DNA of 64,000 nt from Bacteroidota bacterium (GTDB taxonomy: Bacteria > Bacteroidota > Ignavibacteria > Palsa-1295), in assembly GCA_018266755.1 (NCBI GenBank), contig JAFDZW010000011.1, positions 1 to 64,000 on the forward strand, written 5' to 3'. The notes below the pieces were generated by a model. That model saw only the letters and a program-made list of their open reading frames with translations. It was not told the DNA's origin and did no database searches. Position 1 is the stretch's first letter. Each line of letters starts with the position of its first letter. Positions 7,467 through 12,048 of the stretch are shown one piece after another. A program made the translations under genes and the position numbers.

Positions 7467-7498
7467 AAAAAAGGGCAGGCTCATCGCCTACCCTTTCA
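7467..7498 (-). terminator. Rho-independent terminator after the redox operon
   Basis: On the minus strand GGGTAGGC and GCCTGCCC pair (one G-U) around the loop GATGA, followed by a run of six T. It lies about 20 bases after the ferredoxin stop codon. Confidence 0.8.
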
Positions 7499-7517: not shown

Positions 7518-8210
7518 TTAGAACCACTTCCCAACCACATCGAAACCGATGACGGTCAAGACAAGCAACATGATCACCGTAAACACTCCAAAGAGTGAGA
7601 TATTACGGACAAAGTTGCGCATCAAGTGGCCGTAGTCACGAGCCGGCTTCGTGCTGACTTTTACCGGTCCTGTGACTTCGCACTGACAAGCGAGGCGGTA
7701 TTTCGGATTATCACGGATCAGATGGACCTTCTCCATCGCTGTCGGCTGGCTGATCCCGTCTGCCGGATCGACCGACACGCGACACGACGTGCAGAGCCCC
7801 AGGCCTCGGCAATTCAAAAGGGTCATCACGTCCGAGTATAGCGGAACACTATTCTCAAGACAGACCTGCCGAAGATTCGAGCCTTTCTCGGCGATCACGA
7901 CAATATCGTCTTCGACGAATGTGATCGGGACATAGCCTTCCGGAATATTGATCTGCGAAAGATCAGCGCTGACCGTACGCTCGCGACGGATTTTCTGGTA
8001 CTCGGAATCCGTACTCTCCGGAGCATCCTTGAAAAAGCCCTTAAACTCCTCGCTAACGTGCGGGGCGTCATGGTGGGCATGCTTTGCGGCAGTCGGGGTC
8101 GGGACGACCGTGCCGCCGCCTGCACCGAAGAGCCAGCGGGAGAACCCGCCGACGCGCATTTCCTCGTTATGACGCTCTAAACTCGATTTTCCGGAATGAT
8201 CGTGTGACAC
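7518..8210 (-). CDS. Membrane-anchored [2Fe-2S] ferredoxin-domain protein
   Basis: The 230-residue product starts at a GTG (8210) eight bases after AAAGGAG. Residues 1-80 are polar and His-rich. Residues about 95-190 form a plant-type [2Fe-2S] ferredoxin domain with Cys134, Cys140, Cys143 and Cys175, in the order C-x5-C-x2-C-x31-C. A C-terminal hydrophobic helix (about 204-224) should anchor it in the membrane. It is the last gene of a redox cluster, 99 bases after a dihaem cytochrome. It probably passes electrons between a soluble partner and a membrane or periplasmic chain. Which side the cluster faces is uncertain: the single C-terminal anchor with no signal peptide favours the cytoplasm. 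Confidence 0.75.
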   Translation of the reverse strand: MSHDHSGKSSLERHNEEMRVGGFSRWLFGAGGGTVVPTPTAAKHAHHDAPHVSEEFKGFFKDAPESTDSEYQKIRRERTVSADLSQINIPEGYVPITFVEDDIVVIAEKGSNLRQVCLENSVPLYSDVMTLLNCRGLGLCTSCRVSVDPADGISQPTAMEKVHLIRDNPKYRLACQCEVTGPVKVSTKPARDYGHLMRNFVRNISLFGVFTVIMLLVLTVIGFDVVGKWF

Positions 8211-8309
8211 CGTTTGGTCTCCTTTTACTCTAAGCTACAAATATACGAAACCGAGGGGGTCAGCCGGGGCGAAAACACCCGACGCGGCAGTACATTGCTG
8301 AAGCTATAT

Positions 8310-9086
8310 TCAACGGCGAGGAGGATGCGCAGCATCGCCTGTGCGCAGCGACCAGACATAGTTCGAGAGGTCCCACCGCTCATGGGGGCTGAGTTTGCGA
8401 GCATCGAGTTCGGAGGAGAAAATGCGGTACAGGTCACGGACATCCGTCGAGAACCGGTAGTCGGATCGGTTCGTCAGGTCGCTCTTGACCATCACCTTGC
8501 CCAAGGTATTCGGTACTCCAACGGCTGGGCTGTCTCCCTTCCCTTCCGGCCCATGGCACGATCCGCACTTCGCCTGAATATATACTGCTTTCCCACGGGT
8601 AATACTTTCTGCATCCATTGGGACTTGATCGTCGAAATCGACCGGGATGATGGGGTACCAAAACGTATCACGAAATTTCGGAGCAATGCTGCGAATGAAT
8701 TCGAGTATTGCCAGACGATCTTCCGGCGAAAGCGACGAGAACGACGGCATTGCCGTATTGTGAATTCCACTCGTTACCGTATGGTAAATATCGTAGTCGA
8801 GCGGCAACTCACCGCAGATCGTCGAACGATTCGCAAAGACACCTTTTGTCAGATCCGTTGGAACACGTACCATGTTCGCTGCCATCGGTCCGTCGCCTTT
8901 TCCTCCTGTCCCATGACAGGGTGCGCAGGAGAGTCGAAAGACCGTACGCCCCCGGTCAATGATTTTGATATCGGCCAAGGGGCGCATCTTCAGATGCTCC
9001 GGCGGATCTGTCACCGACGCAAAACCGACTCCCCTCACCGAAGCAAGCACCATTGCGACAGATACCAGTGACGTGACGATCCACAT
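8310..9086 (-). CDS. Dihaem cytochrome c, second haem domain without the usual Met
   Basis: A signal peptide (WIVTSLVSVAMVLASVRGVGFA) leads to two cytochrome c domains: CAPCH at 54-58 and CGSCH at 174-178, both followed by KGD and, in the first, GDGP. The first domain has a candidate distal ligand at Met113 (TAMPSF). At the corresponding place in the second domain the paralogue at 9086 has VPMPSY, but this protein has DARKLSP, so no Met is available. Its ATG shares one base with the stop of the upstream paralogue (TAATG). It acts in the periplasm, as an electron carrier or a subunit of a larger redox complex. Confidence 0.85.
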   Translation of the reverse strand: MWIVTSLVSVAMVLASVRGVGFASVTDPPEHLKMRPLADIKIIDRGRTVFRLSCAPCHGTGGKGDGPMAANMVRVPTDLTKGVFANRSTICGELPLDYDIYHTVTSGIHNTAMPSFSSLSPEDRLAILEFIRSIAPKFRDTFWYPIIPVDFDDQVPMDAESITRGKAVYIQAKCGSCHGPEGKGDSPAVGVPNTLGKVMVKSDLTNRSDYRFSTDVRDLYRIFSSELDARKLSPHERWDLSNYVWSLRTGDAAHPPRR

Positions 9087-9880
9087 TACTGAATCCCTCC
9101 GATCGCCGGATATTGTTCATGGTTTTGCAGTGCCCACACGTAATTCGCCAGATGCCAGCGTTCGTCATCGCTGAGCGAATTAGTGTACGACGGCATCGGC
9201 ACACCGTTGAGCCCGGTCGAGAATATGCGATAGACATCGCTCACATTCGATGCAAATTTGTACGCCGAGCGATTGGTCAGGTCGGTACTAACCACATAAT
9301 GTCCGGCATCATCATGCTGCGTCGGGGCCGCCGGTCCGTCACCTCTGCCAAAGTTGCCGTGACAATCGTAGCATTTCATTGCAACGTATATCTTGCGTCC
9401 CTGGGCAAGCCCTGCGGGAGTTACCGGCAGCGGTTTTGAGAGCTTGACGGTATCGAGTGGATATTCTTCCGAATCCGAAAACCGTGTCGATAAAGTTTTG
9501 ACATACGCGACCAGCATCCACCGCACCTTCGGATCGAGTTGTGCGAACGGCGGCATGCTCGATGTGTGCACACCTGCGGTGATCGTGCGATAAATATCGT
9601 AATCGGTCGGGAGTTGACCGCTGGCGGTCGAACGGTTTTTATACACCCCGAGTGTCAGATCGCGCGGAAGATTGCGCAAGTTTGCCGCAATCGGACCGTC
9701 GCCTTTACCTCCTACCCCATGACATGGCGAGCATGACCATTCAAAGTACACCTTGCCTCTGGCTGCACGGTCGGCCTCGTTCTCGACAACCTGTACCGGG
9801 TTCTTCGGACGTGTCGTTCCTCCCAGCGCGAAGGCACCGGCAAGCAGAAGCGCGACTACACGTATAGTAAGCGGTATCAT
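9086..9880 (-). CDS. Dihaem cytochrome c
   Basis: The 264-residue precursor has a signal peptide ending near residue 20-24, then haem sites CSPCH (50-54) and CYDCH (170-174). Each site is followed by GDGP and a possible Met ligand (Met109 in SSMPPF, Met229 in VPMPSY). It is clearly paralogous to the next gene: both share DYDIY followed by a TxG(I/V)H segment, YRIFS, and ERWxLxNYVW. Tandem duplication of this dihaem module is the simplest reading. It lies 6 bases after the haem-containing outer-membrane protein gene. Predicted periplasmic electron carrier; partner unknown. Confidence 0.88.
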   Translation of the reverse strand: MIPLTIRVVALLLAGAFALGGTTRPKNPVQVVENEADRAARGKVYFEWSCSPCHGVGGKGDGPIAANLRNLPRDLTLGVYKNRSTASGQLPTDYDIYRTITAGVHTSSMPPFAQLDPKVRWMLVAYVKTLSTRFSDSEEYPLDTVKLSKPLPVTPAGLAQGRKIYVAMKCYDCHGNFGRGDGPAAPTQHDDAGHYVVSTDLTNRSAYKFASNVSDVYRIFSTGLNGVPMPSYTNSLSDDERWHLANYVWALQNHEQYPAIGGIQ

Positions 9881-9886
9881 GTCGTA

Positions 9887-11137
9887 TCAGAATCCGAAGA
9901 GCACTCCAAGAACCGCACTCGTCGTCGAACGATCGAGCAGCCCGATGCGTCGTTCATCCAATTGCGTCGCCCCTGCCGAGAGCACAACATTCGGCAGGAC
10001 GTGATATCGAATTCCAAGATCGAATTGCCGATTGAGGATGCCGAGCTCCTTGGCCTCGGCATAGTCGAGGCGGGCAAAGGCATAGAAGCGCTCGGGCAAG
10101 ATGATAATGTTCGTCCCGATCAATGCGATAGTACTATTGGCCGTATGGCCGCTGCTATCGGCTTTCGCGTCGAAGCCCCTCACAAATTCGCCGCAAAGCT
10201 GGAAGCGCTTGAGCCATGGGTCGGTCAGCTCGATGTTCACGGCGACTCGGTTTGTCGCATTATCCCAGTGTACTGTAGGGGTAAGGGCATCGGCGATCGT
10301 TTGTGTGCCACCGAAATAACTCAGACCAAACCGCAGCGGTGTATTGTCGAGGTAGATCGTTTGATCGAGTCCGACGAAGACGGCCCTGTTCTTTCCAAGG
10401 TCGATCTCGCTGAGATTGCCGCCGTATAATCCGACTTCCCATCTCAATCCCTCGAAGACTTGCGGAAGCAGCCCGAATGCCGATAGCCCGAACATCGGGT
10501 CGGTAAGGATGAACGTATTGACCTCCGAGTCGACCATCGAGAACGGTGCATACGATGTGACGAACGGATCGGCATTCGAGAGGATCACATTTGCCGGATA
10601 CGCGACGAGCGGCGACATCTTGCCGAAGCGTAGATTCAGATTCCCGAGCCCGTCGCCGAGAATATCGGACCATATCACTTCGGCAGTAAGCACATCGATA
10701 CCGACGTCACTTCCTGCGATCGCCACGGGTGTCTCGGCAAAATATGAAAAATGCGGCCCGAGCTGACCGGTGCTAAACAGAGCAAGTTCGATGCCGGAGA
10801 ATATTGTCTTTCGTACTGCACTCGAATCGCTCAGATTGTTTTTCGTGCTTGTCGTGACAATCTTCGGATGTGCGACCAGAGCGAGCGGGAACGGTCCCTG
10901 ATCGACCTGCGCGGTTGGATCAGCGCTGGCACCGGGCAATTGAAAACCGGATGCCTGGAATCGGCGGCCAAAATCGTTGAGGAGCGGCGGTGTGGTATGG
11001 CATGTAAAACATGTCGTGCCGTACTTCCTGGCAAACAGTGGGATCGCCCGAACATCGACGGTGATAAGCATTATTACAAGCGCACACGCCAACACAACGC
11101 CGGGATGAAATCTTCGGAATGGGTGGAGGGTATTCAT
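9887..11137 (-). CDS. Outer-membrane barrel-like protein with N-terminal monohaem c site (porin-cytochrome type)
   Basis: The 416-residue precursor has a signal peptide (about 1-31), then FARKYGTTCFTCHTTPP with one CxxCH (43-47) and a conserved-looking NDFGRRFQASGF. The remaining 340 residues alternate hydrophobic and polar positions, contain many aromatic-capped strand segments and end in LGVLFGF, with the C-terminal Phe typical of outer-membrane barrels. One N-terminal haem c fused to a barrel is the layout of Cyc2-like iron-oxidation proteins. Similarity to Cyc2 itself cannot be tested by eye; it may belong to a separate monohaem outer-membrane family. It sits between a cupredoxin and two dihaem cytochromes in one operon, which supports electron transfer across the outer membrane. 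Confidence 0.65.
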   Translation of the reverse strand: MNTLHPFRRFHPGVVLACALVIMLITVDVRAIPLFARKYGTTCFTCHTTPPLLNDFGRRFQASGFQLPGASADPTAQVDQGPFPLALVAHPKIVTTSTKNNLSDSSAVRKTIFSGIELALFSTGQLGPHFSYFAETPVAIAGSDVGIDVLTAEVIWSDILGDGLGNLNLRFGKMSPLVAYPANVILSNADPFVTSYAPFSMVDSEVNTFILTDPMFGLSAFGLLPQVFEGLRWEVGLYGGNLSEIDLGKNRAVFVGLDQTIYLDNTPLRFGLSYFGGTQTIADALTPTVHWDNATNRVAVNIELTDPWLKRFQLCGEFVRGFDAKADSSGHTANSTIALIGTNIIILPERFYAFARLDYAEAKELGILNRQFDLGIRYHVLPNVVLSAGATQLDERRIGLLDRSTTSAVLGVLFGF

Positions 11138-11151
11138 ATGCGTGTCGACCG

Positions 11152-11967
11152 TTAGCGGAGATCGAAGTTACATTGAGCACTGGCGCCGTCGCCGACCACA
11201 ACTTCACGCTCTTGCACGACGGGATCACTAAAGATCGGCCGACCGTCTACGCCCGACTCTTTCTGCTCCCACCCCTCGTGCCACATAACAACGGTATACG
11301 TGCCGGCCGGAAGCCCGTCCAGCGAGAACGAGCCGCGTTCGTCGGTCACTACGGCATACGGATTCGCCGTCACCCAGATCCACGCGGACATCCAGGTATG
11401 CCCCGCATCGCATTCTACGTTGATCATCCCCTGCTTGCGCAGTTCTTGCATCGAGCGTTGCCCTTCATTTGGCTGCGCAATATTAAATGCGGTCGAGCGC
11501 TCGGCTCGGTTGCCTGCATAGCTATAAAAATATCCATGGCAGTTATGCAGCACGGGATCTTCGTTCTTGAACTCGATGCTCGATCCGCGCGCTGCAACGA
11601 CCAGATGCGGCCAGAAACGGCAGCTCGTCTGGGTAATCGAGGCTTGCTTCATCGATGTCGTCGAAGCAGCCGGCGGATTCTTGATGAATATCAGCGTTGA
11701 TTGCACACCGTTCCCCGCACCGAGCAGCAGCCGGTCGAGCGGATGTTCTTTCCCACATGCCGCGTCGCCGACGGCTGTCATTGTTAGCTTCTTTGGGATT
11801 TTGCCACTAAACGTTACTGTCCCACGAATCGACCCCGAGGACGGCGCCGGTCGTTTCAAGGATTTCGATGTATGAAGTGCGCTCTGTGTTGTCGGAATGC
11901 CAATGGTGGAGAACATGAAGCAGACCATCACAATTTGCCACGCAAACGCAGCAATCTTTCTGTTCAT
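11152..11967 (-). CDS. Secreted cupredoxin-like type 1 copper protein
   Basis: The 271-residue precursor has a signal peptide (about 1-30). The core shows type 1 copper ligands in the usual order: a His in VLHNCHGY (His141, or His144), then VECDAGHTWM with Cys186, His190 and Met193, matching C-x3-H-x2-M. After the copper site comes a carboxypeptidase-regulatory-like segment (GSFSLDGLPAGTYTVVMWHEG). It is the first gene of the redox operon, 14 bases before the haem barrel gene, so a periplasmic single-electron carrier role is likely. Similar proteins are sometimes named methylamine utilization proteins; nothing here supports that pathway. Confidence 0.75.
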   Translation of the reverse strand: MNRKIAAFAWQIVMVCFMFSTIGIPTTQSALHTSKSLKRPAPSSGSIRGTVTFSGKIPKKLTMTAVGDAACGKEHPLDRLLLGAGNGVQSTLIFIKNPPAASTTSMKQASITQTSCRFWPHLVVAARGSSIEFKNEDPVLHNCHGYFYSYAGNRAERSTAFNIAQPNEGQRSMQELRKQGMINVECDAGHTWMSAWIWVTANPYAVVTDERGSFSLDGLPAGTYTVVMWHEGWEQKESGVDGRPIFSDPVVQEREVVVGDGASAQCNFDLR

Positions 11968-12048
11968 CGTATGCTCTTTCTGCTATTGCATACGGCAAAA
12001 ATACAGGACCAGCCCCCCTCTCAACAAGGACTAAAGTTGTCGTATATC

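Follow-up and report, generated by a model that had tools for sequence, protein, structure and literature searches.

Introduction

Cyc2 is a marker used to recognise iron oxidation in microbes, but it is an open question whether distant homologs of the protein share this activity. The protein is recognized by a consensus – AXPXFAR[Q/K][T/Y] before the haem site, a motif unique to Cyc2, and PXL four residues after it – and further by a length of more than 365 residues and one CXXCH (Keffer et al. 2021, PMC8406198), with OprP and OprO as the two structures named for its fold (PMC8406198). In the rus operon of Acidithiobacillus the Cyc2 gene heads the row cyc2-cyc1-cup-coxBACD-rus (PMC10654088), and a cupredoxin and a dihaem cytochrome of this system interact (PMC5982212). 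This report concerns a four-gene operon (genes A to D, positions 8310–11967, minus strand) in a 64-kb stretch of DNA, hereafter the window, from a bacterium of the Kapabacteria, a little-known group (genome of 11 contigs, 3.55 Mb). By sequence and predicted fold the product of gene B carries the features published for Cyc2, and we think it probable that genes A to D constitute a Cyc2-type module for electron uptake, leading from an extracellular donor via periplasmic carriers to oxidases of the inner membrane or to the bc complex.

Cyc2-like genes in Ignavibacteria are known from the DeMMO and Trout Bog surveys (PMC8478452, PMC6344600). In the literature that we searched, no description of the pathway came up for either Kapabacteria or Kryptoniota; a single paper mentions Cyc2 together with Kapabacteria or Kryptonia, and does so in passing.

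The locus and its genes

An earlier reading of the DNA (the original prediction) had joined genes A to D and a fifth, the ferredoxin gene E, into a single redox operon. All five open reading frames were confirmed (271, 416, 264, 258 and 230 residues), as were their common direction, which is that of the minus strand, and the gaps between successive genes (14, 6, −1 and 99 bases). Where a terminator had been proposed there is a terminator-like hairpin with a T tail at 7497–7469, minus strand, 20 bases past the stop of gene E. The proposed identities – a cupredoxin, a barrel protein with one CXXCH, two dihaem cytochromes and a ferredoxin – were likewise upheld, that of A through its fold and with no Pfam cupredoxin match. 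The single operon did not survive: genes A to D are one operon and gene E is an unrelated neighbour, as set out below. GC (guanine plus cytosine) content gave no sign of recent foreign origin, and a plasmid search returned four matches, all of them weak.

A Cyc2-like cytochrome-porin

The identity of the system turns on gene B (9887–11137, minus strand). Its product matched no Pfam or NCBIfam family, and a PDB sequence search gave no convincing match; following a signal-peptide-like stretch, however, it reads AIPLFARKY-GTT-CFTCH-TTP-PLL-NDFGRRF. AIPLFARKY (residues 31–39) is an instance of the Cyc2-unique motif, CFTCH at 43–47 is the only CXXCH of the protein and lies near its N-terminus, and P51-L52-L53 supplies PXL four residues past the haem site, after H47. 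The length of 416 residues compares with at least 365 for Cyc2. Three residues separate AIPLFARKY from Cys43, where PMC8406198 states '5 amino acids upstream'.

An AlphaFold2 model built from 30 sequences predicts a barrel of 16–17 strands (mean predicted local distance difference test (pLDDT) 73.6, predicted template modelling score 0.72). The original prediction had proposed a barrel behind an N-terminal haem; the barrel is borne out by the model, in which the haem-bearing segment has low confidence. Foldseek matched the model to porins, best to Omp32 (E 4.3e-13), then to PorB (3e-12), OprP (2o4v, 2.6e-11) and OprO (4rjw, 1.2e-10), so that the predicted structure agrees with the C-terminal 16-strand, OprO/OprP-like barrel of Cyc2. 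The Cyc2-like option raised at the outset has thus gained both a Cyc2-unique motif and a predicted porin-type barrel, and an outer-membrane location for B seems likely.

B resembles Mariprofundus Cyc2PV-1, Acidithiobacillus ferrooxidans Cyc2 and Leptospirillum Cyt572 in its single N-terminal haem, the AXPXFAR[QK][TY] and PXL motifs, the OprP/OprO-like barrel and its similar length. Unlike them, it forms a clade of its own among the Bacteroidota sequences sampled, and a gene for a dihaem cytochrome of Kustc0457 type always follows it. A contig scan of relatives with B alone returned none, and an alignment-based scan returned 40. In the tree 20 B-type proteins form a clade with support of 100/98 (the tool issued a long-branch warning), separate from a second clade of Cyc2-motif proteins from the same genera and from homologs in Chlorobiaceae. 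With MtrAB, MtoAB and Pcc, B shares only the idea of an outer-membrane barrel combined with haem: in those complexes the multihaem cytochrome is a protein of its own inside a barrel of 26 strands, whereas B has one haem fused to 16–17 predicted strands, and no multihaem gene was found in the operon.

The second Cyc2-motif protein, a distant one with AMPNFARKY, occurs in genus g3 (L022:523-1860, L026:3493-4914, L025:13330-14817), and in L022 and L026 its gene lies shortly upstream of Rieske–cytochrome b genes. Twenty contigs of Chlorobiaceae/Chlorobiales (L061–L080) encode monohaem proteins of the B kind; in those read, the motif A[LI]P[VA]FARKY is present, while the place of PXL behind the haem site is taken by P-x-R-N. 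The Chlorobiaceae homologs were considered as reference Cyc2 (Cluster 1) and dropped: AXPXFARKY is present but P-x-R replaces PXL, and their identity was not certified.

The periplasmic carriers

Genes C (9086–9880) and D (8310–9086), both on the minus strand and overlapping at stop and start, encode cytochromes c with two CXXCH motifs each, and both products match Pfam Cytochrom_C. The best PDB match of either is 6h5l chain B (C: E 3.7e-52, over residues 40–255; D: E 1.8e-29), which we take to be Kustc0457 of Kuenenia; cytochrome c4 is not named among the PDB matches of gene C up to E 0.001. The haems of Kustc0457 extend the haem chain of Kustc0458, its HAO-like anammox partner. The relation of C and D to Kustc0457 covers almost the entire chain, but the adjacent HAO-like octahaem gene was found neither in the neighbourhood within the window nor in the loci of relatives that were read: the operon partner here is a cytochrome-porin. 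C and D are 39.6% identical over 255 residues. The best matches of D in relatives are the orthologs of C, and an ortholog of D was not found; D therefore appears to be a diverged, lineage-specific paralog of C that occurs in this genome alone. Elsewhere in the host genome (contig C2:25532-26098), a 580-residue open frame about 10 kb from the aa3 oxidase genes contains another dihaem stretch of the Kustc0457 kind.

Gene A (11152–11967, minus strand) has no Pfam cupredoxin match and only a sub-threshold match, at its tail, to CarboxypepD_reg. Its AlphaFold2 model (pLDDT 85) was matched by Foldseek to purple cupredoxin, plastocyanin and amicyanin (E about 4e-6), and also to NirK. All 15 homologs compared keep H121, H141, C186, H190 and M193, the last four of which are the putative type-1 copper ligands. 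Gene A is a probable periplasmic copper electron carrier, to which a C-terminal carboxypeptidase-regulatory-like domain is joined. The haem and copper proteins of the module all have signal-peptide-like N-termini.

The original prediction could match the combination to no named pathway. A Cyc2 gene, a dihaem cytochrome and a cupredoxin are, however, the components of the rus operon in Acidithiobacillus (PMC10654088), and the same three kinds of gene are contiguous, and conserved, as A, B and C. The correspondence is not complete: the terminal oxidase genes of the rus operon have no counterpart beside the operon in the window, although oxidase genes do accompany B in three Kryptoniota loci, and gene A differs from the rus cupredoxin in its additional domain. 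The best reading is that A to D are an analogue of the rus operon with a different dihaem carrier.

Conservation and linked respiratory genes

The arrangement was followed through 23 distinct loci from Kapabacteria, Kryptoniota and Ignavibacteria relatives, several of them incomplete, and with a limited set of respiratory reference genes. In every one of the 23, C comes after B, and in 15 of them A also comes before B. The co-occurrence proposed for all five genes is accordingly not seen: A-B-C are often together and B-C always, but not the five. Genes for the bc complex, oxidases, NirK, NosZ, SCO or CcoI-type proteins lie within 7 kb of B in ten loci. By a rough estimate, restricted to haem-copper-oxidase and cytochrome b genes and based on the five such genes in the 3.55-Mb host genome, a random 15-kb stretch would hold one of these two kinds about 2% of the time.

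In Kryptoniota, two loci (L058, L033) have the order coxB-coxA-SCO-B-C and a third, on a short contig (L057), shows coxA-SCO-B-C with coxB not detected; in L031 oxidase genes are nearby, though not in the same row. In genus g3 the neighbours of A-B-C are Rieske–cytochrome b genes, a P-type ATPase gene together with a fused ccoNO, or the row nirK-SCO-nosZ-nosL; in L025 they are nirK/SCO. L024 (7481-16151) has, after A-B-C, a nirK to which a haem domain is fused, an unclassified gene of formylglycine-enzyme-like appearance, SCO, a Sec-dependent-type nosZ and nosL.

The host genome itself encodes three PF00115 proteins: an aa3-type oxidase, a cbb3-type oxidase and a qNOR (L099, L100 and L101). 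A paralog of A precedes coxB-coxA of the aa3-type oxidase, and a paralog of C stands directly upstream of ccoN of the cbb3-type. There are two cytochrome b genes, one of them in a bc-complex operon (L105:2477-9704; contig C5, about 282.5–289.7 kb) with Rieske, split cytochrome b, a further paralog of A and a 1019-residue protein with eight CXXCH motifs. Given these paralogs beside the oxidases and the bc complex, the module has the same two kinds of carrier as the respiratory enzymes of its host. NrfD, of alternative complex III, was not found in the genome by a search whose controls matched; searches for NosZ and ATP-citrate lyase matched no control genome.

Electron uptake and its alternatives

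The mechanism that we propose begins at the outer membrane, where B would accept electrons from a reductant outside the cell, with Fe(II) as the likeliest, its single haem sitting at the periplasmic mouth of the porin barrel. The dihaem proteins C and D and the cupredoxin A would then bring the electrons through the periplasm to the inner membrane and pass them either to its oxidases of cbb3 and aa3 type or to its bc complex. The order of carriers would then be outside donor, haem of B, C/D, A and oxidase; like the direction of flow and the Fe(II) donor, this order is what we infer from the parts. Uptake is preferred over release because the enzymes attached to the module are electron sinks, and because the Cyc2 proteins so far tested oxidise Fe(II). 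While uptake as such is probable, Fe(II) as the donor, although the most likely single candidate, falls somewhat short of an even chance. More tentative still is the wider proposal of a distinct pathway of Cyc2 type common to the Kapabacteria, Kryptoniota and Ignavibacteria relatives, in which a monohaem cytochrome-porin works with a dihaem cytochrome of Kustc0457 type and with a cupredoxin of two domains, and through which Fe(II) would supply electrons for respiration, both aerobic and denitrifying.

Several observations weigh against electron uptake from iron. Only one member per Cyc2 cluster has shown iron oxidation, and the function of distant homologs, above all those of Cluster 3, is uncertain in the authors' own view. 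B is assigned to no Cyc2 cluster, the Chlorobiaceae homologs not being certified as Cluster 1. The segment of B that holds the haem (residues 26–73) has pLDDT below 50 in the AlphaFold2 model. The rus Cyc1 is a cytochrome c4, whereas gene C is Kustc0457-like. No oxidase gene stands next to the operon within the window, and 13 of the 23 loci, several of which are cut short, have no gene of the limited respiratory reference set within 7 kb. RuBisCO was not found in the host genome (the controls matched), and growth on iron alone is for this reason not indicated.

The last point is also one of two that favour a Cyc2-type uptake system with a donor other than Fe(II) – a reductant small enough for the pore, for example Mn(II), a reduced organic compound or another metal ion – since a host without RuBisCO is not an obvious iron autotroph; the other is that what substrates most Cyc2 homologs accept has yet to be tested. 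Yet Fe(II) is a substrate of all three Cyc2 proteins that have been assayed biochemically, and we regard a different donor as unlikely. The same proteins might instead run in reverse, delivering electrons from respiration to an acceptor outside the cell, for instance Fe(III) or humics. According to the Trout Bog study, Cyc2-like genes occur in taxa that reduce Fe(III), Ignavibacteriaceae among them (PMC6344600), and in genus g3 the module has genes of the bc complex next to it. But terminal oxidases and nitrogen-oxide reductases, which are its neighbours, consume electrons, the operon has no multihaem conduit, and iron oxidation is what the Cyc2 proteins tested so far perform, all of which makes export unlikely.

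It could also be that the operon supplies electrons to nitrogen-oxide metabolism, with C and D partnering a nitrogen-cycle enzyme in the manner of Kustc0457 and B acting as a haem-bearing porin for nitrite or NO. The closest PDB relative of C and D is a partner of the HAO-like Kustc0458, A-B-C adjoins nirK-SCO-nosZ-nosL in L024 and nirK/SCO in L025, and the host has a qNOR. This linkage to nir or nos, however, is confined to two of the 23 loci, others being linked to oxidase or bc genes; the Kryptoniota loci have no nir or nos genes there, and neither the operon nor its neighbours include an HAO-like gene. We consider this reading improbable.

If the wider proposal of a shared, Fe(II)-fed pathway holds, iron oxidation would extend to lineages that are not known for it. 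A well-supported clade, a fixed gene partner and some rows with oxidase genes in any case provide a concrete set of proteins with which to test, outside Proteobacteria and Chlorobium, whether distant Cyc2 homologs oxidise iron.

The ferredoxin gene

Gene E (7518–8210, minus strand) encodes a tail-anchored [2Fe-2S] ferredoxin whose Fer2 match is just above the cut-off (22.7 versus 21 bits). Its position outside the module is judged from relatives. Orthologs in five members of the family (59–75% identity) all adjoin tRNA-Arg(CCT), and none has A to D there; in three (L094, L096, L097) uvrC comes a short way after it, which is the arrangement of the window too. Genes 12892, 12514 and 12089, the block of three ahead of A in the window, stand directly upstream of E in L098, and in L095 one unrelated gene separates them from E. 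On the simplest reading of these gene orders, A to D came to lie between the three-gene block and E. In relatives with A-B-C, gene E is either absent or elsewhere; it was not found in the seven genomes of genus g3, all of which have B.

The promoter-like TAnnTTTG is the Bacteroidota-type −7 element. It occurs at 15 sites in the window, six of which lie 15–45 nucleotides before the start of an open reading frame, against 0.13 expected at random, and two of these six precede A and E. The element before E, TATATTTG (8238–8245, minus strand, 27 nucleotides upstream), is kept 27–30 nucleotides upstream of E in four of the five relatives that lack A to D there, which suggests that E is a separate transcription unit. 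The element before A, TATTTTTG (11996–12003, minus strand, 28 nucleotides upstream), was not conserved upstream of A in the eight relatives examined.

An electron route through all five genes, membrane ferredoxin included, could draw on their common strand, the 99-base gap between D and E and the shared terminator. Set against these are the residence of E beside tRNA-Arg with its own TATATTTG where A to D are missing, the block that flanks A being next to E, or one gene from it, in L098 and L095, and the absence of E from all seven g3 genomes that carry B; we hold the five-gene route to be very improbable. E belongs instead to the tRNA-Arg/uvrC region, with a conserved promoter-like element of its own, and its exclusion matters to anyone modelling the route of electrons.

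The protein itself points in the same direction. Its sequence, as read, shows no signal peptide and a single membrane helix, which is C-terminal and follows positive residues; by these charges the [2Fe-2S] cluster probably faces the cytoplasm. The electron route originally proposed between the cell surface and the inner membrane is thus plausible for A to D, and the ferredoxin – unlinked to these genes in relatives, with no signal peptide and probably cytoplasm-facing – lies outside it.

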